DNA of 64,000 nt from Planctomycetota bacterium (GTDB taxonomy: Bacteria; Planctomycetota; Phycisphaerae; UBA1845; UTPLA1). Positions within the stretch are counted from its first letter, which is position 1. Every line of letters starts with the position of its first letter. The notes under the pieces were generated by a model. The model was not told where the DNA came from. It made no database searches and worked only from the letters and a program-made list of their open reading frames with translations. The position numbers were made by a program, and so were the translations under genes. Where the stretch lies: NCBI GenBank assembly GCA_016235815.1, contig JACRIM010000046.1, positions 1-64,000 on the forward strand. Direction: 5' to 3'. This document shows, one piece after another, positions 7,416 through 59,018 of this stretch.

Positions 7416-8735
7416 TCATTTCCCAATCCCCGGTTGCGGCGTCGGCAGGCCGTTTTTGGCGACGTCCTCAAACGCCTCGCAAAACATATCCAATTCCGTC
7501 AGGCTCGTATAGACGTTGGCCGACACGCGGATCCCTTCGAACTCGTCGTGCTTGATGGGCACAACAATGATCTTGTGTTTCTCCCAAAAATGCTCGGTGA
7601 GCTTCCCCGAATCCACCCCTTCCAACTGAATGGTCCCAATGGCACACGAATGGGCGGGATCAAGACTGGTATGCATTCGAACATTCGGCAGCTTCATCAA
7701 CCGCTTGGCCCAATAGTCGCGAAGGTAGCGCAGCCGATCCGCCTTGCGCTCGGCGCCGATGCCCTCCCAGAATGTCAACGCCTCGGCAATCGCCAGACGC
7801 CCCGCGTCGGGGTGCGTGCCGATCTCCTCGAACTTGCGAATGTCGTCCGACCTGGGCTTCTCCGCCGCCGTCAGCGGCCACACGTCTTTGATCCGATCCT
7901 TGCGAACATACAGGAAGCCGGTGCCGATCGGAGCCGTGCACCACTTGTGCAGGCTCACGCCGTACATGTCGCATCCGATCTCGCCTCCGTTACACGGAAA
8001 CTGTGCGAATGCATGGGCCCCATCGACAATGGACCAAATCCCGCGCGACCGCGCCAAGGCACAGACTTCCTTCACCGGCAGGATTTGACCCGTCATAAAT
8101 ATTGAGTGCGATACGAGAATCACCCGCGTCTTCGGCGTGATCGCCTTCTCAAACAAGCTCACGATCTCCGGCATCGAACGCGCCGGCGTGGGAATCTTGA
8201 ATTGTTTCAGCACAACGCCTTCGCGCGCGGCCCGCTGCTTGATCGTGGTGATCATCCGCGGGTAATCCTGCGTGGTCGTCAGGATTTCATCGCCCGGTTT
8301 CAGGTCAATTCCGTTGAGGGCGATCTGCAACGCCTCGCTGGCGTTTCGCGTGATCGCCATCTCGCCCGTCGCGCAGCCGAAGGCCTTCGCCAGCCGCGCC
8401 CGCACGTGCTCCACCTGCGGGTCCATGATCGTCCACAACGTTCGCACCGGGGCGTTGTTGGTGAATGTCAGGTGCCGTTCCTGCGCGCTCATCACCAACC
8501 GCGGTGCCGGGCAGCATCCGCCGTTATTCAGATTGATGATGGACCGATCGACATCGAACGCCTGCTGAATCTGAAACCAGAAGGATTCGTTGCCGCCCAT
8601 TCCCCCGCCGCCGCCGCCACCTCCACCGTCGCGCTCCGCAGCCGCCAGCCGCGCGGGCCAGTCCTCCTTGAGAAACGACACCACGCCCAGCGCAGCGCCC
8701 GTTGTCCGAAGAAATGCACGTCGGTCTTGAATCAT
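7416..8735 (-). CDS. Tat-exported class V aminotransferase (isopenicillin-N-epimerase-like)
   Basis: A 439-residue fold-type I PLP enzyme of the class V aminotransferase/CefD-like group. It begins with a twin-arginine signal (DRRAFLRTTG, then a hydrophobic stretch), so it should be exported folded with its cofactor. A run of nine glycines follows at about residues 37-45. The family core includes NNGGCCPAP, TRNASEAL, VDGAHA and the PLP lysine in SLHKWC. Members catalyse epimerisation, desulfuration or lyase reactions on amino acids; which one occurs here cannot be read. It lies divergent from the M28 peptidase gene, with about 135 bp of shared promoter region. Confidence 0.85.
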   Translation of the reverse strand: MIQDRRAFLRTTGAALGVVSFLKEDWPARLAAAERDGGGGGGGGGMGGNESFWFQIQQAFDVDRSIINLNNGGCCPAPRLVMSAQERHLTFTNNAPVRTLWTIMDPQVEHVRARLAKAFGCATGEMAITRNASEALQIALNGIDLKPGDEILTTTQDYPRMITTIKQRAAREGVVLKQFKIPTPARSMPEIVSLFEKAITPKTRVILVSHSIFMTGQILPVKEVCALARSRGIWSIVDGAHAFAQFPCNGGEIGCDMYGVSLHKWCTAPIGTGFLYVRKDRIKDVWPLTAAEKPRSDDIRKFEEIGTHPDAGRLAIAEALTFWEGIGAERKADRLRYLRDYWAKRLMKLPNVRMHTSLDPAHSCAIGTIQLEGVDSGKLTEHFWEKHKIIVVPIKHDEFEGIRVSANVYTSLTELDMFCEAFEDVAKNGLPTPQPGIGK

Positions 8736-8871
8736 GCGACACCCTCGTCCGAATCGTACTCGGAACCCTCAAGGCGGCAATCAAAAACCGCCCTCATTCC
8801 AAATCCCCAATTGCGGGCCATGCCGAATCCCCTATCATTTCAGCCTTTCGCAAACACCCCCGGGGATACCC

Positions 8872-10269
8872 ATGACCCTCCGAACGCGCCTCGTTTTTTC
8901 AGTTTGCCTCTCACTTACCACCGGCTGCTCCATCCACGATCGCTACCGCGCCTCGGCCGACCGCATCATCGACGCCACGCTCGCCTCCAACGACTCGTGG
9001 AAGAAGATGCACGAACTTTGCGACGGCATCGGCCACCGGTTGAGCGGCTCCCGCGAACTTGAACGCGCCGTCGACTGGGCCGTCGCCAGCATGAAGGCCG
9101 ACGGCCACGAGAATGTCCGCGCAGAACCCGTCATGGTGCCGCACTGGGTGCGCGGAAATGAATCCGCCATGATGATCGAACCGCGCACGACACCCCTGGT
9201 CATGCTCGGCCTCGGCGGCTCTGTCGGCACTCCGCCCGACGGCATCACCGCCCCGGTCGTCGTCGTGGGCGATGAAAAAGAACTCGACGCCCTCGGCAAC
9301 GGCGCCCAAGGCAAGATCGTGTTGTTCAACAACCCCATGCCGCCCTACGACAAAAAGACCGGCTCGCACTACGGCGAAACCGTGCGATTCCGCGGCAAGG
9401 GCGCCATCCTTGCTTCGCAAAAAGGCGCGATCGCCTGCCTGATCCGCTCCGTGACTGCACGAAGCATGCGCACGCCGCACACCGGCGCAATGCGCTACGA
9501 CGACAAAGTGAAAAAGATCCCCGCGGCGGCGATCACCACGGAAGACGCCGACATGATCGCTCGCCTCGCGAAGAGCGGAGCGCAGGTCGTCGTCCGCCTC
9601 ACCATGGAAGCCCGCACGGAACCCGACGCCCCAAGCGGCAACGTCGTCGCGGAGATTCGCGGCCGTGAAAAGCCTGACGAGGTCGTCGTCATGGGCGGCC
9701 ACATCGACTCATGGGACGTCGGCCACGGCGCACACGACGACGGTGCCGGCATCGTCATGTGCATGGAGGCATTGAACGTCATTCGCAAGCTCGGCCTACA
9801 ACCCCGCCGCACCATCCGCGTCGTGCTCTGGACGAACGAAGAAAACGGCCTCGCCGGCGGCAAGCAATATGCCAAAGACCACGCCGCCGAGATTCCAAAC
9901 CTCATCGCCGCGATCGAAAGCGACTCGGGCGGCTTTGCACCCGATGCCTTCTCCGTCGAATGCAAGGACAAGTCGCGCGAGGAAGTCGCTCATCGCCAGA
10001 TCAATGACATCTCCCGGCTCGTCGCCCGCCTTGGGTCATTCAAAATCTCATGCGGCCACTCCGGCGCAGATGTCAGTCCCATGAAGGACATGGGCGCAAT
10101 GCTGATGGGCTTTTCCACCGAAGGCGAGAAGTACTTCGACTACCACCACACCCCCGCCGACACACTCGACAAAGTGAACCCCGACGAACTTTCGCGCTGC
10201 GTCGCCAGCATGGCCGTGATGACCTACGTCCTCGCCGACATGCCCGAGCGTCTGGGCACGCCTCGGTAG
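8872..10269 (+). CDS. M28-family zinc aminopeptidase, lipoprotein
   Basis: A 465-residue exported peptidase. The start at 8872 gives a lipoprotein signal peptide with the lipobox LTTGC (Cys at about residue 20), so the enzyme should be membrane-anchored. The open frame reaches back to 8734 without support. A PA-type domain lies at about 120-240. The M28 dizinc site is complete: H277 in GGHIDSWD, D289 in HDDGAG, E323/E324 in NEENG, D351 in ESDSGG, and a His of YHHTPADT at 425-426. The enzyme should release N-terminal amino acids from peptides outside the cytoplasm. Its TAG stop falls inside the palindromic repeat that follows. Confidence 0.9.
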   Translation: MTLRTRLVFSVCLSLTTGCSIHDRYRASADRIIDATLASNDSWKKMHELCDGIGHRLSGSRELERAVDWAVASMKADGHENVRAEPVMVPHWVRGNESAMMIEPRTTPLVMLGLGGSVGTPPDGITAPVVVVGDEKELDALGNGAQGKIVLFNNPMPPYDKKTGSHYGETVRFRGKGAILASQKGAIACLIRSVTARSMRTPHTGAMRYDDKVKKIPAAAITTEDADMIARLAKSGAQVVVRLTMEARTEPDAPSGNVVAEIRGREKPDEVVVMGGHIDSWDVGHGAHDDGAGIVMCMEALNVIRKLGLQPRRTIRVVLWTNEENGLAGGKQYAKDHAAEIPNLIAAIESDSGGFAPDAFSVECKDKSREEVAHRQINDISRLVARLGSFKISCGHSGADVSPMKDMGAMLMGFSTEGEKYFDYHHTPADTLDKVNPDELSRCVASMAVMTYVLADMPERLGTPR

Positions 10270-10347
10270 GGTCCGCTGTGCGGACCAGTTCAGGTACCGC
10301 GGATGGCAAGGTGTTTTTCTTGAATCGGTCCGCACAGCGGACCCTAC
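10266..10347. repeat. Inverted pair of a 21-bp palindromic repeat
   Basis: Two copies of a 21-bp sequence with the core GGTCCGCTGTGCGGACC lie in opposite orientation at 10266-10286 and 10327-10347 as perfect reverse complements, separated by 40 bp. Each copy is itself a near palindrome (GGTCCGC/GCGGACC around TGT), so the pair can fold as two small hairpins or one large one. The left copy supplies the TAG stop of the M28 gene; the right copy ends 13 bp before mutM. A third copy lies inside dnaE2 at 25872-25892. It looks like a dispersed REP-like element. Confidence 0.9.
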
Positions 10348-10360
10348 AGCTGACAATTCC

Positions 10361-11179
10361 ATGCCCGAACTCCCCGAAGTCGAAACCATCATTCGCGGCC
10401 TGCGACCCACCGCTGATGGCGCGACCATCGAGGCCGTCACCATCCTCCGCGCCGATGTCATCCATGCCGGCCGCTCCGCCATTCGCGCCGCGCTCCCCGG
10501 CCGTCGCATCCAATCCCTCGGTCGCGAAGGGAAGCGCATCCTTTTCAACATCGACTCCGGCGCGCTCCTCGTCATTCACCTCGGCATGAGCGGGCGCCTC
10601 ACACTCGAACCAACCGACGCACCGCTTGCCAAGCACACGCACTTTCGCATCGGCCTCAAAGACAGCGTCAACGAAATCCGCTTCCGCGACCCACGGCGCT
10701 TCGGCGGCGTCTGGTTCTTCCCAACCGCGGCAGACGCGGCGCAAAGCGGCATCAAACCCCTCGGCCCCGATGCCCTCACCATCCGCGTGCCGGTCCTGCG
10801 CGAACTCGCCCGACGCAAACGACAGATCAAGGCCCTGCTGCTTGACCAATACGCCATCAGCGGACTCGGCAACATCTATTGCGACGAAGCCCTTTTCTCC
10901 TCGCACATCCACCCGCTCACACCCGCGACCGCCCTTTCCGAGTCGCAAATACGCAACCTTGCATGCAGCATCCGAAAGACGCTCAACGCCTCGCTCAACT
11001 CCGGCGGCTCAACCCTCATGGACTATCGCACCGCCGACGGCAACGAAGGCCGCTTTCAGAGGCTCTTCCGCGTTTATGACCGCGAGGGCGAGCCGTGTCG
11101 ACGGTGTGGCAAGATCATCGAGCGAATCATCGCCGCCGGCCGGTCGACCCATTTCTGCCCGAAGTGCCAACGCCTTTAG
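10361..11179 (+). CDS. mutM: Formamidopyrimidine-DNA glycosylase
   Basis: A 272-residue bifunctional DNA glycosylase and AP lyase that removes 8-oxoguanine and ring-opened purines. The N-terminus MPELPEVET carries the catalytic Pro2 and Glu3. Further family marks are HLGMSGRL, RFRDPRRFG, SGLGNIYCDE (helix-two-turn-helix region) and a C-terminal zinc finger with CRRCG and FCPKC. All catalytic and zinc residues are present and length is typical. It sits between two exported peptidase genes with no functional link, directly after an inverted repeat. Confidence 0.96.
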   Translation: MPELPEVETIIRGLRPTADGATIEAVTILRADVIHAGRSAIRAALPGRRIQSLGREGKRILFNIDSGALLVIHLGMSGRLTLEPTDAPLAKHTHFRIGLKDSVNEIRFRDPRRFGGVWFFPTAADAAQSGIKPLGPDALTIRVPVLRELARRKRQIKALLLDQYAISGLGNIYCDEALFSSHIHPLTPATALSESQIRNLACSIRKTLNASLNSGGSTLMDYRTADGNEGRFQRLFRVYDREGEPCRRCGKIIERIIAAGRSTHFCPKCQRL

Positions 11180-14238: not shown

Positions 14239-15726
14239 ATGAAACGAGCTACGCAGCATGCAGCACGCAAGCGCAACGCAGCGTCGGAGAAGGGACACGA
14301 TCGCTGGGTAGTGCGAGTCTGCGCATCGGCCGTAGCGGCTCTGGCGATATTGAACGCCGCAGCGCCGGTGCGGGCCCAGTGCGATGGCGTGTGGACGAAA
14401 CGAATGCCCGCCGCCTCGCCGTCTGCCCGCAGCAATCACCAACTGGCCTACGACAGCGCCCGGGGCGTAACCGTCCTCTTCGGTGGCGGATTTGGCGACA
14501 GCACCTCCGGCATGAACAATGAGACATGGGAGTGGAATGGCACGAGCTGGTCACAATGGTCCCCCGCCACGTCACCCTCGCCGCGCACTTTTTTCGGCAT
14601 GGCTTATGACATCGCCCGCGGCGTGACCGTGCTGTTCGGCGGCTACGACGACGCCACGAACGCTCCGAGCGGACAGACATGGGAGTGGGATGGCACAAAC
14701 TGGTCGCAAAAATCCCCCGTCCCAGCGCCATCGGCCCGCTTTGGGCACGCAATGGCCTACGACAGTACCCGGAACGTGACGGTACTGTTCGGAGGATACG
14801 ATGGAGTGAACACACTCGCCGAAACGTGGGAATGGGACGGAACGAGCTGGGTACAAAGAACTCCTGGAATGTCGCCTTCCCCTCGCACCGGCCTTGCCAT
14901 GGCCTATGACGGCGTCCGTGGGGCGACCGTGCTTTTCGGCGGAAACCTCAATGCCGAGACGTGGGAGTGGAACGGCACCACCTGGACGCAGAAGTTCCCG
15001 TCCACTTCTCCTGCTGCTCGTCTGTTCCTTGCAATGGCCTACGACAGCGGTTCGGGTGCGACCGTGCTCTTTGGCGGCACCACGGGAAGCGGTCTCGTTG
15101 TCGATACCTGGAAGTGGGACGGGACAAACTGGTTTCAACAGTCCACCACCACCGCGCCGACAGGGCGCTACTATCACGCGATGGCGTATGACATCAACCG
15201 GAGCGCCGTCGTACTCTTCGGCGGAGTTTCGAATGATACTGGCGTTGCTACTAACACCAACGAGACGTGGGAGTGGAGCGTGCCCACCTTCCAGATATCT
15301 CTTCAGCCGGCGGCGCAAATCGTCGGTGTCGGCCAGGCCGCAATACTTTCCGTCACCGCCACCGGCCCCGGTCCATTCTCGTACCAATGGCGCTTGAACG
15401 GCAATCCGCTTGCCGACGGTGACGGCATTTCCGGATCGGCCACGGACACGCTGATCATCAACCCCGCGTCCACCGCGAACAACGGATTCTACGGCTGTCA
15501 GGTGAACACTCTCACCTGCCAAACGATCTTGAGCGATTTCGTCGAACTAACGATTGATCCATGTAAGGCCGTGGGAACGACCGGCGACGCCGACGGAAAT
15601 GGCATCTTGGATTCGTGCGAAACACCAACCTGCGGCGCGTGCGGCGCTGGCATGGCGACGATGATGCCGATGCTCCTGGTCGGAATGATCGGCCTGCGAC
15701 GGACGCGCACAGTATTCCGAAAATAG
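14239..15726 (+). CDS. Secreted six-repeat kelch protein with C-terminal sorting tail
   Basis: A 495-residue exported protein. The ATG at 14239 follows GGAG by 8 bases. A long basic N-region precedes the hydrophobic stretch of the signal peptide (VCASAVAALAILNAAAPVRA). Residues about 45-350 hold six kelch repeats of about 50 residues with VLFGG and TWEW motifs and R-x-x-x-AYD turns, enough for one beta-propeller. An Ig-like segment follows (SYQWRLNG...). The C-terminus has CGACGAG, a hydrophobic helix and a basic end (GLRRTRTVFRK), like Cys/Gly-led membrane-sorting tails such as MYXO-CTERM. Likely a surface-anchored binding protein; the ligand is unknown. A paralogue with twelve repeats lies at 56.7-59.0 kb. 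Confidence 0.85.
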   Translation: MKRATQHAARKRNAASEKGHDRWVVRVCASAVAALAILNAAAPVRAQCDGVWTKRMPAASPSARSNHQLAYDSARGVTVLFGGGFGDSTSGMNNETWEWNGTSWSQWSPATSPSPRTFFGMAYDIARGVTVLFGGYDDATNAPSGQTWEWDGTNWSQKSPVPAPSARFGHAMAYDSTRNVTVLFGGYDGVNTLAETWEWDGTSWVQRTPGMSPSPRTGLAMAYDGVRGATVLFGGNLNAETWEWNGTTWTQKFPSTSPAARLFLAMAYDSGSGATVLFGGTTGSGLVVDTWKWDGTNWFQQSTTTAPTGRYYHAMAYDINRSAVVLFGGVSNDTGVATNTNETWEWSVPTFQISLQPAAQIVGVGQAAILSVTATGPGPFSYQWRLNGNPLADGDGISGSATDTLIINPASTANNGFYGCQVNTLTCQTILSDFVELTIDPCKAVGTTGDADGNGILDSCETPTCGACGAGMATMMPMLLVGMIGLRRTRTVFRK

Positions 15727-22778: not shown

Positions 22779-25700
22779 ATGCCCGATCCTCCTGATCGAA
22801 AGGTACACGATCATCCGTTCAAGCGCGCCGCGCCGGCCGAGGCGGGCCGCGCCGGCTACACACCCGCGCCCACGGCCTACGCCGAACTCGCCGTCACCAG
22901 CAACTTCACGTTTCTCACCGGCGCGAGCCATCCCGATGAACTCGTCCATTGCGCCGCCGCGATGGGCCACCATGCCATTGCGCTGACCGACACCAACTCC
23001 CTCGCCGGGATCGTTCGCGGGCATGTCGCTGCACAAGAAGTCGGCATTCCGTTCGTCGTCGGCTGTCGGCTTCGTTTCGTCGAACCGGCGGGATTGTCAC
23101 TGTTTGTGTATCCGACCGATCGCGCCGCGTATGGGCGGCTGTGTCGACTGCTCACGCTCGGCAAACGGCGCGCGCCCAAGGGCGAATGCCATCTATGGCT
23201 GGATGATCTCGACGGGCACACCGAAGGATTGCTCGCTGTTGCGTGGTTCGCAGCGCCGACGGACGACAACACGCCGGACATCATTCGCCGTCTCGCGCAT
23301 TGGTTCGACGACGATCGGCTGTCACTCGCACTGGCCCGCCTCTACACGCCGAACGATCCGCCCTATCAGGCCGCCGCCGTCGAGCACGCCCGCCGCGAGG
23401 GCATTCCGCTGGTGATCGTCAACGACGCGCACTATCACACGCCACAGCGACGCGCCCTGCATGATGTACTCACCTGCGTTCGCCACGGCTGCACCCTCGA
23501 CGAAGCCGGGTTTCGACTTTTCTCAAACGCCGAGCGGCATCTCAAGCCGCCCGACGAGATGGCCCGCCTTTTCGCTGAGCATCCCGTTGCGCTTACTCGC
23601 ACCGTCGAGATCGCCGCGCGGGCGTCTGGTTTTTCACTGGATCAACTTCGCTATGAATACCCGCACGAGGTTTGCCCGCCGGGCCTTTCGCCGATGCAAC
23701 ACCTGCGCGAATTGACGTGGCGATGCGCCGATGATCGCTATCCGCAGGGCGTGCCGGTGAAAGTTCGGCAACAAGTCGAGCATGAGTTCACGCTGATCGA
23801 AGAACTCAACTACGCGCCGTACTTCCTGACCGTGCATGACATTGTCATGTATGCACGCTCGCGCGACATCCTCTGTCAGGGGCGCGGCGCCGCGGCGAAC
23901 TCGGCCGTCTGCTTTTGCCTCGGCGTCACCTCCGTCGACCCCGACCGAATCAACGTGCTCTTCGAGCGATTCGTCAGCCGTGAACGCGACGAACCACCGG
24001 ACATCGACATCGACTTCGAACACGAACGCCGGGAGGAAGTAATCCAATACATCTACGCGAAGTATGGCCGCGACCGCGCCGGCCTGACCGCCGAAATCAT
24101 CTCCTATCGCAGCCGCAGCGCGGTCCGCGACGTCGGCAAGGCGCTCGGCCTGTCACTCGACGCCGTCGATCGCATCGCCAAGCGCGTGCACGACTGGCAC
24201 GACGACGGCTTCACCGATGAGACACTCGCGCAGCTCGGCCTCGACCCCGCCGACCCGACGCTGCGCCTCTTCCGACGCCTCGTGCAACTGATCGTCGGTT
24301 TCCCGCGCCATCTGTCGCAACACGTCGGCGGCTTTGTGATGTCGCGCGGCCCGCTGTGTGAGCTGGTGCCCATCGAAAACGCCGCCATGGAAAACAGAAC
24401 CGTCATTGAATGGGACAAAGATGACATCGAAGCGCTGGGAATTCTAAAGGTGGATGTGCTGGGGTTGGGGATGCTGACGTGTATTCGGAAGGCGCTTGGC
24501 TTTGTGAATGCCTATCGGGAGGCACAAAGGCACAAAGGCACAGAGGCACAAAGGGGAGAGCGGCCTCCGTGCTTGCAAATCAAGAATAACGAGTGGACAA
24601 CATGTCAAGTGGAAAAAGATACATTGAAAGGAGTCCCGGATGAATACAATTCGCACATTTCGAGATCTGGTGGCTTGGCAGAAGGCAATGGATCTGGCTT
24701 GCCGCGTCTATTTGTCGACCGACTCGATGCCGACAAAGGAGCAATTCGGCCTGACAAATCAAATGCGCCGGGCGTCAATATCGGTGCCGTCGAATATCGC
24801 GGAGGGGTACGCACGGCAAAGCCTGAAGGATTACATGAAGCACCTTCGCATCGCCCGTGCCTCCCTGGCGGAGCTTTCCACGCAGTGGGAACTCACTCAG
24901 CGAATGAAGATGATTGTGGACGACAAGACCCTCACAGCACTCATCGCGGAAGTGGATCGAATCATCCAGGGGTTATTAATGAAACTCGAGACCAAGCGAC
25001 CCAAGAAATAGATACGGCCGCCGAACCCTCTGTGCCTTTGTGCCTCTGTGCCTCTGTGCCTTTGTGCCCTCGTGCCTCTGTGCCTCTGTCCCTAGCAAGT
25101 ATTCCCCCCGAGGACCCCCACGTCTACGACATGATCTGCAAAGCCGACACCATCGGCGTCTTTCAAATCGAATCGCGTGCGCAAATGTCCATGCTGCCGC
25201 GGCTCAAGCCTCGCTGCTTTTATGATCTTGTCATCGAGGTCGCGATTGTTCGGCCGGGGCCGATTGTCGGCGACATGGTGCATCCATACCTGCGCCGGCG
25301 AAACGGCGAGGAACCTGTCATCTACCCCGATGAAAAAATCGAACGCGTGCTCGGCCGGACGCTGGGTGTGCCGCTCTTCCAGGAGCAGGCCATGTCGCTG
25401 GCCATCGTCGCCGCGGGGTTCACGCCGGGCGAGGCTGAGAATCTTCGCCGCACGATCAGCGCGTGGAAGAGTCGCAGCAAGGACGCCATCCCGCGCTATC
25501 GACGCCGCTTCATCGAGGGCATGGTCGGCAACGGCTACGAACAGAAATTCGCGGAGCAATGTTTCGAGCGGCTCAAGGGCTTCAGCGAATACGGCTTTCC
25601 CGAATCGCACTCGGCCAGCTTCGCGCTGCTGGTGTATGCATCCTCCTGGTTGAAGTGTTACTACCCCGCCGCATTCGCCGCCGCCTTGCTGAACAGCCAG

Positions 25701-26684
25701 CCGATGGGTTTCTACGCACCGGCCCAGATCATTCGCGACGCCCGCGACCACGGCGTGGAGGTGCGGCCGGTTGATGTGAATTGGAGCGCGTGGGATTGCA
25801 CACTAGAAGGCACAGAGGCACGAAGGCACAAAGGCACAAAGGGAACAGGGAAGGGGGAACAGGGAACAGGCGTAGGGTCCGCTGTGCGGACCAATGGCTC
25901 TCAAGATTCAAGTTTCAAGACTCAAGGCTCAGGACTCAAGACTCAGGACTCACGTGCGATTCGGCTGGGCATGAGAATGGTGCGCGGGCTGCGCGAGGTG
26001 GATGGCATAGCGATTGCAGATACTGTGCGGCGGCATGGGCCATTCGCATCCGTGGTCGATCTCTGGCGAGCCTGCGAAGTCTCGGCGTCGGCGCTGCACG
26101 CCCTCGCCGCGGCGGATGCATTCGGCTCCATGAAGCTCGACCGCCAACAAGCCCTCTGGGCCGTGCGTTCGCTTCGAGGCAAACCGCTGCCGCTCTTCGA
26201 CGCACCGTGGCGCGAATCCGAACAGCAGCAACACACGACGACCCTGCCCAACATCACCCCCGAGGTTGAGGTCATCCGCGATTACCAATCCGTGGGCCTC
26301 TCGCTGAAATCGCACCCCATCGCCTTCATCCGCGATGCACTCGCCAAGCGACGTGTGCTTACCGCGGCGCAGATCCGCGACGAACGCGCTTGTCCGCACG
26401 GCCAGATCGCCGCTGTCGCCGGCCTTGTCCTCGTCCGCCAGCGCCCCGGCACGGCCAAGGGTGTCCTGTTCATGACACTCGAAGACGAAACGGGCCGCGC
26501 CGATCTGATCTTGCGGCCGCATGTGTTCGAACGCTACGCCACGGCCGCACGCTATGCCCGCATCGTCCTCGCCCGCGGCCGTATCGAACGCGACGGGTTG
26601 GTGGTGCACATGCTGGTGAATCGCGTGGAGGAGTTAACGGAGGAGTCGCTCGCGCTACCGCCGATGTCACGCGATTTTCATTGA
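22779..26684 (+). CDS. dnaE2: Error-prone DNA polymerase DnaE2 (ImuC) with two in-frame insertions
   Basis: A 1301-residue C-family polymerase, the translesion enzyme of ImuABC; relatives are about 1050-1080. GGGGAG precedes the ATG. The N-terminal PHP domain reads AELAVTSNFTFLTG, lacking the metal-binding HxH. The palm is intact: D408, D410 and D412 in PDIDIDF and D559 in KVDVLGLG. After NAYRE (residue 580) come about 190 extra residues encoded by a mobile element (24520-25091), then the family sequence resumes at LASIPPEDP. Residues about 1012-1059 are a second foreign insert of short repeats, after WDCTLEG and before AIRLGMRM. An OB fold lies at about 1205-1290. Removing both inserts gives normal length. 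If translated as written, the inserts fall in loops and may be tolerated; activity is not proven. Confidence 0.9.
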   Translation: MPDPPDRKVHDHPFKRAAPAEAGRAGYTPAPTAYAELAVTSNFTFLTGASHPDELVHCAAAMGHHAIALTDTNSLAGIVRGHVAAQEVGIPFVVGCRLRFVEPAGLSLFVYPTDRAAYGRLCRLLTLGKRRAPKGECHLWLDDLDGHTEGLLAVAWFAAPTDDNTPDIIRRLAHWFDDDRLSLALARLYTPNDPPYQAAAVEHARREGIPLVIVNDAHYHTPQRRALHDVLTCVRHGCTLDEAGFRLFSNAERHLKPPDEMARLFAEHPVALTRTVEIAARASGFSLDQLRYEYPHEVCPPGLSPMQHLRELTWRCADDRYPQGVPVKVRQQVEHEFTLIEELNYAPYFLTVHDIVMYARSRDILCQGRGAAANSAVCFCLGVTSVDPDRINVLFERFVSRERDEPPDIDIDFEHERREEVIQYIYAKYGRDRAGLTAEIISYRSRSAVRDVGKALGLSLDAVDRIAKRVHDWHDDGFTDETLAQLGLDPADPTLRLFRRLVQLIVGFPRHLSQHVGGFVMSRGPLCELVPIENAAMENRTVIEWDKDDIEALGILKVDVLGLGMLTCIRKALGFVNAYREAQRHKGTEAQRGERPPCLQIKNNEWTTCQVEKDTLKGVPDEYNSHISRSGGLAEGNGSGLPRLFVDRLDADKGAIRPDKSNAPGVNIGAVEYRGGVRTAKPEGLHEAPSHRPCLPGGAFHAVGTHSANEDDCGRQDPHSTHRGSGSNHPGVINETRDQATQEIDTAAEPSVPLCLCASVPLCPRASVPLSLASIPPEDPHVYDMICKADTIGVFQIESRAQMSMLPRLKPRCFYDLVIEVAIVRPGPIVGDMVHPYLRRRNGEEPVIYPDEKIERVLGRTLGVPLFQEQAMSLAIVAAGFTPGEAENLRRTISAWKSRSKDAIPRYRRRFIEGMVGNGYEQKFAEQCFERLKGFSEYGFPESHSASFALLVYASSWLKCYYPAAFAAALLNSQPMGFYAPAQIIRDARDHGVEVRPVDVNWSAWDCTLEGTEARRHKGTKGTGKGEQGTGVGSAVRTNGSQDSSFKTQGSGLKTQDSRAIRLGMRMVRGLREVDGIAIADTVRRHGPFASVVDLWRACEVSASALHALAAADAFGSMKLDRQQALWAVRSLRGKPLPLFDAPWRESEQQQHTTTLPNITPEVEVIRDYQSVGLSLKSHPIAFIRDALAKRRVLTAAQIRDERACPHGQIAAVAGLVLVRQRPGTAKGVLFMTLEDETGRADLILRPHVFERYATAARYARIVLARGRIERDGLVVHMLVNRVEELTEESLALPPMSRDFH
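24520..24551. repeat. Left 8-bp tandem array of the dnaE2 element
   Basis: Four direct units of AGGCACAA/AGGCACAG at 24520-24551, followed by AGGGG. They are reverse-complementary to the right array at 25028-25091 and match four units in the second dnaE2 insertion at 25808-25839. Confidence 0.95.
24640..25011 (+). CDS. S23/IVP four-helix-bundle protein
   Basis: A 123-residue protein of the 23S rRNA intervening-sequence family (four-helix bundle, S23). It shows the family pattern in order: FRDLVAWQKAMDLACRVY, then a P-x-x-E-x-FGL segment, QMRRASISVPSNIAEGYAR, and HLRIARASLAEL. The Shine-Dalgarno AAAGGAG lies 6-7 bases upstream of the ATG, so it looks independently translatable. It is read in a frame different from dnaE2, inside which it lies entirely. 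Known relatives sit in excised rRNA fragments or, as Avd, assist diversity-generating retroelements by binding nucleic acid; the function in IVS elements is not established. Intact reading frame suggests recent arrival or selection. Confidence 0.9.
   Translation: MNTIRTFRDLVAWQKAMDLACRVYLSTDSMPTKEQFGLTNQMRRASISVPSNIAEGYARQSLKDYMKHLRIARASLAELSTQWELTQRMKMIVDDKTLTALIAEVDRIIQGLLMKLETKRPKK
25028..25091. repeat. Right 8-bp tandem array of the dnaE2 element
   Basis: Eight consecutive 8-bp units (CTCTGTGC, CTTTGTGC, CTCTGTGC, CTCTGTGC, CTTTGTGC, CCTCGTGC, CTCTGTGC, CTCTGTCC) at 25028-25091, the inverted form of the left array. In the dnaE2 frame it encodes a Cys/Leu/Pro/Ser-rich stretch. Confidence 0.95.
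25808..25955. repeat. Composite short-repeat insertion in dnaE2
   Basis: A second in-frame insertion in dnaE2 stacks four repeat families. First, four AGGCACAR units at 25808-25839. Second, four GGGAACA-type heptamers at 25841-25868. Third, one copy of the palindromic repeat with core GGTCCGCTGTGCGGACC at 25872-25892. Fourth, seven TCAAGAC/TCAGGAC heptamers at 25901-25949. The polymerase frame stays open, adding about 48 residues between WDCTLEG and AIRLGMRM. Confidence 0.9.
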
Positions 26685-56660: not shown

Positions 56661-59018
56661 TCACTGGGCAAGCACCGTCGCAACAAATCCCGGCAGATCG
56701 TCAACGCTGATGCCCCCGCTGAAATCAAAATCGCACAGACAGCGTTCGGCATTGGTCACGCTCGGCGACAGCAACACACCGATAAATAACGCAATGTCGT
56801 CGCCATTTACCCAGGAATCGCCATTCACGTCGCCGCTCGGAGCACCAGGGCACATCACCAACGTCGCGCCCGCCGTCACCGTCGTTCCACATTCGTCTGT
56901 CACGACCGCGTCATAAACCCCCGCCAGTGTTTCATCCAGGGGAAAGACGACAAGATGCAAATCGGTCGCCCCGGAAATGGACACCCCGTTTTCCAGATAC
57001 GCCCCGTCCCGCCGCCACCGCACGAACATCGGCGGCTGAGCATCCATCGCGACCACGAATTCGGCTGCATGACCCACCCAGGTCATCGCACTCGCCGGCT
57101 GTTGGGTTATCACGGGGGGACGCGAATCACCGATCCAGGTGTCGCCCAGCATGTTCGCATCATCATTGCCGTCAAATACGACAAGCTTCTGATTCAGCGA
57201 GTCATACATCATCACATGCCCGGACCGCGCCGAAGGCATCGGAGATTCATCCTGAGACCAGCCGGTTCCATTCCAGATCCATGCATCACCCAGGTTCGCA
57301 GATCCCGTATTCCCTCCATAAAGAACAACTTTCTTTCGCTGCGAGTCATAAGCAAGCGTGTGCCCGGTTCGCGCCGCCGGCCCCCCGGTCGACCGTAGTT
57401 GCCAGGCTGCGCCGTCCCACTCCCAAGTCTCACCGCTGTACATCGACCCCGAGCGACCGCCGAAAAGGACCGACACGTTCCGCCATTCATCAAATGCCAT
57501 TGACGCTTTTTCTCGCGCCGACGGTCCGGTGGTCGATCGAAGGCTCCAGGCGGTCCCATTCCACTCCCATGTCTCCCCGTTGTCGCCCGACGAAGTCTCG
57601 CCTCCAAAAAGCACCGACACGCTGCGAGACCTGTCATAGGTCATGCTGTGGTACTTCCGCGCCGACGGACCAGAGACCGGCCGGAGCGTCCAGGTGTTTC
57701 CGTTCCATTCCCAGGTCTGCGAGCTTAGCCCGCTGGTTCGCCCACCGAACAACACAACAACCGACCGCGCCGAATCGAAGGTTATCGCGTGTCCCGAACG
57801 CCACGACGGCGGGTCGATCGTCTGACGGTTGCTCCATACCCCGTTGTCATACTCCCACGTTTCATTGTTATTCCCGGTGTCTGCGTCCCCGCCGAAAAGC
57901 AGGCCCTTGTTCCTTGCTGAATCAAACACCATCGCGGAGTTGAATCGCGGCGACGGCGCAGAGACCGGCGCGTACTGCGACCATTCGCTCCCGCTCCATT
58001 CGTACGTCTCGCCGTAATTGTTGCCCTCCGACAAACCACCGAAGAGCAGCGTCCGCTCCAGTGACGGGCAATAGCTCAGTTGCACGGCATACCGGGGTGA
58101 AATGCCCGCCGTGGCCCGAATCGTCCATGCGTTTCCGTTCCATTCCCACGTGTCATTCGCCGGCCCTTCATCGTCGAGGCCTCCAAAGAGCACCGTGCGC
58201 TGCCGCATCGGATCGTAGGTCAGGCCCTGGAACATCCTCGGCTCCGGCCCGGTCGTTCCCCGAAGCGTCCACACCGCTCCATTCCACTCCCATGTGTCGC
58301 CAAGATGGGTCTGGCCCGTAGACCCTCCAAAAAGAACGATCACCTGTCGATCAGCGTCATACGTCATCCGTTGACCGAATCGCGGCGAAGGCGCCGCCCC
58401 ATTCTTCAACGTCCACGACGTTCCGTTCCATGTCCACGTCTCACCAAAAACCGTTGAGCCGTTGTATCCGCCGAAAACCACATGCACCCCGCGCGCCACG
58501 TCATACGCGGATGAAACATACGCCCGCGCGGTCGGTCCATTCACATTGATCTGAGTCCATGCCGAACCGTCCCATTCCCACGTATCAGAGAAAAAACTGG
58601 ACGATCGATTGCCCCCAAACAGAAATGTTTTCCCCCGAACCATGTCATAGGACATCGCGACATGCTCGCGCGCACTGGGGCCGATGGTCGCAACGCATTG
58701 CCATTGGCCGCCGCTGAACTTCCACGTGTCGCCACAAAAAAACGCTGCGCCGGCATGACCGCCGAACAGCAGCGTTACATTTCGACTCGCGTCATAGGCA
58801 AGCCCATATCCGTGACGAATGCTGGGGCCGCGCGTTTCGTTTGCCCATTCCAGACAGTCCTGCGCAAACGTCGCGTCGCTCGAGGAGTAAATAAAGAACA
58901 GACCGGCCAACACCGCGAATGGAAGCGTCCACCGCCATGGTCGCCCATGGGTACGGGTCGCCCCATACCTGGTGCAACGTATGAACTTGAAATCGTTGAC
59001 TTGATCGTGTCGCCGCAT
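56661..59018 (-). CDS. Secreted twelve-repeat kelch protein with dockerin end
   Basis: A 785-residue exported protein with a signal peptide (LPFAVLAGLFFIYSSSDATFA). Residues about 60-645 contain twelve kelch repeats of about 50 residues with LFGG (one YGG, the last FDG) and TWEWNG motifs, enough for two six-bladed propellers. An Ig-like segment follows (FVRWRRDGAYLENG). The C-terminus carries a dockerin-type calcium-binding pair (GDVNGDSWVNGDDIALFI; CDFDFSGGISVDDLPGFV). The repeats are near-identical, so it grew by duplication. Likely a cell-surface or complex-bound recognition protein; binding target unknown. Confidence 0.85.
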   Translation of the reverse strand: MRRHDQVNDFKFIRCTRYGATRTHGRPWRWTLPFAVLAGLFFIYSSSDATFAQDCLEWANETRGPSIRHGYGLAYDASRNVTLLFGGHAGAAFFCGDTWKFSGGQWQCVATIGPSAREHVAMSYDMVRGKTFLFGGNRSSSFFSDTWEWDGSAWTQINVNGPTARAYVSSAYDVARGVHVVFGGYNGSTVFGETWTWNGTSWTLKNGAAPSPRFGQRMTYDADRQVIVLFGGSTGQTHLGDTWEWNGAVWTLRGTTGPEPRMFQGLTYDPMRQRTVLFGGLDDEGPANDTWEWNGNAWTIRATAGISPRYAVQLSYCPSLERTLLFGGLSEGNNYGETYEWSGSEWSQYAPVSAPSPRFNSAMVFDSARNKGLLFGGDADTGNNNETWEYDNGVWSNRQTIDPPSWRSGHAITFDSARSVVVLFGGRTSGLSSQTWEWNGNTWTLRPVSGPSARKYHSMTYDRSRSVSVLFGGETSSGDNGETWEWNGTAWSLRSTTGPSAREKASMAFDEWRNVSVLFGGRSGSMYSGETWEWDGAAWQLRSTGGPAARTGHTLAYDSQRKKVVLYGGNTGSANLGDAWIWNGTGWSQDESPMPSARSGHVMMYDSLNQKLVVFDGNDDANMLGDTWIGDSRPPVITQQPASAMTWVGHAAEFVVAMDAQPPMFVRWRRDGAYLENGVSISGATDLHLVVFPLDETLAGVYDAVVTDECGTTVTAGATLVMCPGAPSGDVNGDSWVNGDDIALFIGVLLSPSVTNAERCLCDFDFSGGISVDDLPGFVATVLAQ

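Follow-up and report, generated by a model that had tools for sequence, protein, structure and literature searches.

An 82-bp inverted pair between a peptidase gene and mutM in this genome raises the question of what kind of repeat can end one reading frame and run through another, and of how such a repeat spreads. The window, meaning the whole stretch of 64,000 nucleotides analysed, belongs to contig C28 of a 4.58 Mb genome (G000) in 60 contigs. The unit GTAGGGTCCGCTGTGCGGACC is found at 10266-10286 on the forward strand (unit 1) and as a perfect reverse complement at 10327-10347 on the reverse strand (unit 2), and consists of a GTAG tag and a hairpin with a 7-bp stem and a 3-nt loop, GGTCCGC-TGT-GCGGACC. 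The perfect inverted pair described by the first-pass annotation is thus present, as a head-head dimer (10266-10347, 82 bp) with the GTAG ends outermost. Upstream lies a peptidase M28 ORF (8734-10269, forward strand; Pfam Peptidase_M28, E 5.7e-32, near-complete domain at profile positions 1-190 of 193), whose stop codon, as the same annotation had proposed, comes from the repeat: it is the TAG at 10267-10269, part of the tag of unit 1. Directly downstream is mutM (formamidopyrimidine-DNA glycosylase, NCBIfam equivalog; 10361-11179, forward strand), and unit 2 lies 13 bases upstream of its ATG. The third unit, a singlet at 25872-25892 on the forward strand, is placed inside dnaE2 (error-prone DNA polymerase, 1365 bits; 22779-26684, forward strand), within a composite low-complexity insert; there it is read in frame as GTA GGG TCC GCT GTG CGG ACC, giving VGSAVRT, and the stop-free phase reported earlier for this copy holds. 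With up to 3 mismatches allowed, the window contains 6 matches where 0.44 are expected, and 0 of 100 shuffles reached 6.

A count of copies throughout the genome, together with their phase relative to genes, had been suggested as a check, and a total of only three copies, or copies that all coincide with terminators, would have spoken for something other than a mobile repeat. The exact core occurs 60 times (34 forward, 26 reverse), the reversed control pattern does not occur (n=0), and a core with any 3-nt loop is found at 68 sites. In an alignment on the core, the 5' GTAG tag is intact in 57 of the 60 copies, and besides the tag only a C at position -5 (40/60) and an A at +1 after the hairpin (46/60) stand out in the flanks. 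There are 16 close exact pairs (at most 130 bp), oriented head-head in 10 cases, head-tail in five and tail-tail in one; by a hand calculation, the probability of at least 10 head-head pairs under random orientation is about 0.002. Placement was assigned with a simple hexamer-based gene caller, a crude tool that missed mutM in the window, so that the resulting counts are estimates: 36 copies are intergenic, 12 form TAG stops at gene ends, with an exact -4 overlap with the gene end, and 12 lie within called ORFs, where same-strand copies take phases 1 and 2 only and never the TAG-stop phase.

The RNA of the window's REPIN, between the M28 gene and mutM, is predicted to form a single long hairpin (-60.3 kcal/mol, z -10.3). 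Such a strong hairpin, and the many copies found directly 3' of genes, would fit an intrinsic (or bidirectional) transcription terminator, with the other copies as shared terminators. This reading is nevertheless very improbable: the REPIN at 10266-10347 has no T tract, there are 0 terminator-like sites across 10000-10600, 12 copies lie within ORFs, some of them inside protein domains, and the sequence identity among copies is far above what a terminator needs and comes with a GTAG tag and an association with a RAYT gene.

The copies inside ORFs are found in genes for a protein kinase, a GH20 glycosidase (3 copies), a FabA-domain synthase (2 copies), an O-antigen ligase and DnaE2, and further ones occur in the N-terminal region of an ScpB protein and at the C-terminus of an epimerase-like protein; a cupin gene carries a whole head-head REP pair in frame. 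A coding insertion like the Rickettsia palindromic elements (RPE), whose added peptide is either selected for or tolerated, would account for the in-frame copies in dnaE2, the kinase gene, the GH20 gene (three), the FabA-domain synthase gene (two), the cupin gene (a whole REPIN) and others. It would not account for a family that is mostly non-coding, with 36 intergenic copies and 12 at stops, hence 48 of 60 outside called ORFs, nor for a GTAG rather than a CGTC tag and an associated RAYT, which CGTC repeats do not have (PMC3733652). As an explanation of the repeat as a whole it is hardly credible; the GGTCCGC REP resembles RPE inside genes, yet it is another family.

The first-pass annotation had noted that the window holds no RAYT transposase, and a search of the whole contig that contains the window likewise found no Y1/RAYT gene. 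The suggested search for such a gene flanked by the same unit succeeded elsewhere in the genome: a REP-associated tyrosine transposase (RAYT) is encoded at G000:C29:132161-132730 (NF047646 equivalog, full-length match, 191.5 bits vs a cut-off of 80), and REP copies stand on both sides of it, at 132091 and 132748 on the forward strand and at 132141 and 132872 on the reverse strand. One of these flanking copies supplies the stop codon of the gene adjoining the RAYT gene. The HLH and YIHYNPV motifs were recognized in the RAYT sequence by eye only. Other genes of the Y1_Tnp family are present at G000:C31:3056-3400, C47:34187-34528, C43:51041-51379 and C52:2260-2610, none of them seen adjoining a GGTCCGC REP.

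Because of the high copy number, the tag, the dimers, the flanked RAYT gene and a cluster of RAYTs that share the same stem (described below), the unit is very probably a RAYT-associated repetitive extragenic palindrome (REP) of the GTAG superfamily, with its GTAG tag, 7-bp perfect hairpin and 3-nt loop, and the segment 10266-10347 a REPIN. The repeat has probably been spread by the transposase. Studies of E. coli, Stenotrophomonas and Marinomonas describe the steps of RAYT action: the enzyme recognizes a single-stranded hairpin, uses GTAG as a guide and cleaves at CT or CA (PMC8266576). The REPIN has been proposed as the mobile unit (PMC3116915). By family membership we infer that a RAYT acts on the GGTCCGC REP in the same way: as an HUH/tyrosine enzyme it would recognize the single-stranded hairpin together with the GTAG guide and cleave beside the hairpin, and REPINs would move as single-stranded intermediates (by analogy with PMC8266576 and PMC3116915). 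Insertions would then persist where they are harmless, namely in intergenic DNA, at gene ends, where phase 0 of the tag gives a TAG stop, and in the read-through phases inside genes, where a 21-bp unit, being a multiple of three, may be read through. The dnaE2 copy, like other singlets, is probably either a remnant that can no longer move or a secondary arrival. A different idea, that GTAG is a pre-existing target tetranucleotide, as TTAC is for IS608, and that the stop codon is therefore older than the insertion, was set aside because in published work GTAG is the guide and cleavage occurs at CT or CA, and there was no empty site for a test.

Within the order, the core is distributed unevenly, at 0 to 117 copies per genome: many genomes have 0 copies, some of the same family have 40-72, and two other families have 65-117. 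This range bears on the possibility that selection maintains the unit at fixed positions as a protein-binding or regulatory palindrome (an operator, an SOS box, or a signal for recombination or DNA uptake). Its stem is a perfect and highly conserved palindrome and its sites are often common to two species of one genus, as would fit such a signal; an asymmetric tag, copies within kinase, cupin, GH20 and dnaE2 genes, numbers from 0 to 117 among relatives and the same unit beside flanking RAYT genes are not what it would predict, and the chance that it is correct is slight.

In several other genomes the GGTCCGC REP is accompanied by a related transposase gene. The closest RAYTs, in G014 and G019, are flanked by the same GGTCCGC stem, and so are RAYTs of Adhaeretor, Botrimarina, Lamprocystis and one more planctomycete, and many RAYTs of other genomes are flanked by GTAG hairpins with lineage-specific stems (GGTGGGC, GGTGGGT, GTCGGG, GATGGGC). 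At one locus of G003 (L193), GTAGGGTGGGTTGTACTCAACCCACC-type hairpins are densely arrayed upstream of the RAYT gene; with their 9-bp stem and 4-nt loop they represent a second GTAG family. Exact matches to a 20-mer in public genomes include, among the matches listed, many Planctomycetota and Chromatiaceae, the latter being Lamprocystis, Thiodictyon, Thiosymbion, Thiococcus and Thiorhodococcus. The REP loci of Chromatiaceae that were first fetched had no RAYT nearby; a whole-genome search of five Chromatiaceae genomes gave one RAYT flanked by the GGTCCGC stem, that of Lamprocystis (Gammaproteobacteria), which is 61% identical.

In a tree of 32 RAYT proteins, the seven that are flanked by the GGTCCGC stem cluster, with Lamprocystis included: the stem changes 2 times vs a mean of 6.5 after shuffling, and 0 of 500 shuffles were as low. 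Support for this cluster is moderate (81/68), and ten other RAYTs of Chromatiaceae form a separate clade (97/94). Since Lamprocystis has the same stem and a related RAYT while the other Chromatiaceae RAYTs fall in a separate clade, the sequences suggest that a RAYT-REP unit was transferred between phyla, in one direction or the other. RAYT and REP do not match up one for one. In G003 and G006, which hold 72 and 40 GGTCCGC copies, the best RAYT matches are flanked by GGTGGGT; the RAYT of G012 falls inside the GGTCCGC cluster, yet it is flanked by GGTGGGC; and in G023, which has 65 GGTCCGC copies, no close RAYT match was found.

The first-pass annotation had gone further and suggested spread by precise insertion of a REP/RAYT-like element. 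The REP/RAYT-like part of that proposal stands, while precise insertion is a deduction, to be set beside what a comparison of genomes revealed. Empty sites were sought by comparing 2 Mb of G014 with the REP loci of G006 and G016. Between G006 and G014, which belong to the same genus and share about 82-92% DNA identity, most of the examined REP sites are shared. At two loci (L302 and L415), a REP with spacer lies between existing REPs in just one of the two species; at another (L275) the sequences diverge at the REP, and two more (L403 and L413) are rearranged. No clean pair of an empty and a filled site was found among the loci examined in G014 vs G006 and G016. What is seen between G006 and G014 is vertical inheritance and REP-to-REP recombination.

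The dnaE2 gene of the window, which hosts the third unit, has two extra in-frame inserts when compared with about half of its relatives. The composite insert with unit 3 (~25805-25953, forward strand, ~aa 1010-1058, in frame) combines the REP with minisatellite-like arrays of GGCACAAA-type, GGGAACAG-type and ACTCAAG-type units, and G013, G001, G007 and G014 lack it or have only a very short version. The larger insert (~24503-25098, forward strand) adds ~190 aa in frame and is bounded by inverted GGCACAAAGGCACAGAGG-type arrays that are 97% complementary. Within it, in the +1 frame, lies an ORF (~24640-25011, forward strand) for a four-helix-bundle protein of the 23S_rRNA_IVP type (PF05635, E 5.5e-32, 112 bits), across which the dnaE2 frame is open. 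The notion that the larger insert is itself a DNA repeat was discarded: its short-repeat edges are the only part found elsewhere in the genome, and its middle is the IVP gene. Arrays of GGCACAAA/GGCACAGA-type 8-nt units occur at 25019-25098 and 25805-25850 of the window and at ~40 places in the genome, in both orientations.

An IVP gene is found at the same dnaE2 site in 7 of the 18 aligned dnaE2 genes of the order, and the rest have no IVP gene there. In two of the seven, dnaE2 has a second IVP gene elsewhere along its length. Every one of these IVP genes uses the +1 frame and leaves the dnaE2 frame open; because the genes were located as long ORFs, disrupted examples could have been missed. 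These second genes (L260 in G032 and L261 in G029) lie near aa 326 of their own dnaE2, and the G032 copy is only a shorter open segment. Under synonymous shuffling, each frame is open with a probability of 0.02-0.32, and the IVP frame is better conserved than the dnaE2 frame (44-66% vs 26-38% identity). In a tentative interpretation, which we hold at somewhat below even confidence, foreign inserts have repeatedly landed in dnaE2 in this order; the IVP segment could then encode two proteins, and the REP with its arrays would mark a second site of this kind. Translation of both frames would make it a nested insertion element that preserves the host frame, of a class not reported before. A literature search that lacked most subscription journals returned no paper on an IVP insert in dnaE2, and this insert is possibly more novel than the REP.

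Other IVP genes of the same genome (L266 on C49, L269 on C2 and L270 on C32) are, by eye, flanked by inverted short tandem arrays whose units differ in sequence (GGGGGATC-, GACAATTG- and AATAGCG-type), and the one on C32 sits, also by eye, between atpG-like and atpD-like genes. Elsewhere in the window, two ORFs on opposite strands (14444-15290 and 57256-58600) contain repeats of ~144-153 nt with similar ETWEWNG-like units and probably encode repeat-rich surface proteins.

The system described here places a REP and its associated RAYT in planctomycete-type bacteria, distant from the model systems of E. coli, Pseudomonas and Stenotrophomonas. Many of the compared RAYTs stand beside a hairpin stem of their own, which offers a natural series for the study of stem recognition by RAYTs, and the in-frame copies within enzyme domains are test cases for the tolerance of proteins to REP peptides.

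GTAG REPs have been described in Planctomycetes and other phyla, with a stem of 6-13 bp and a short loop; they form head-head dimers at spacings of 20-100 bp, lie mainly 3' of genes and frequently provide TAG stops with their ends, and for some species REPs inside dnaE2 are listed (Di Nocera et al. 2013, PMC3733652). The present repeat shares the GTAG end, the stem and loop sizes, the head-head dimers, the mostly non-coding placement near the 3' ends of genes, the TAG stops and the dnaE2 copy with that superfamily, of which both the TAG stops and the insertion in dnaE2 have been established traits since 2013 (PMC3733652). The string GGTCCGC does not occur in the running text of PMC3733652, a paper that lists 24 families, and searching the literature for the core sequence itself found no paper. 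RPE likewise consist of palindromic repeats within open reading frames that add short peptides; unlike the mostly non-coding repeat of this genome with its RAYT, RPE-4 and RPE-6 are CGTC-tagged and have no transposase association (PMC3733652). Like REPtrons, the RAYT gene is flanked on both sides by its own REP, and as in the group 3 Stenotrophomonas REPtron Sm a perfect stem with a 3-nt loop adjoins the GTAG (PMC8266576). The stem sequence is different from that of REPtron Sm and its length is 7 bp rather than 8. Pseudomonas REPINs number in the hundreds, unlike the small population found here, with 10 exact head-head pairs. The organization of two inverted REPs and a spacer, with one predicted hairpin, is that of the REPIN, a proposed mobile unit (PMC3116915). 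The repeat between the M28 gene and mutM is, then, part of an ordinary and well-formed REP/RAYT system of a known class, from a family that purple sulfur bacteria, although unrelated, also carry, along with a related transposase gene.
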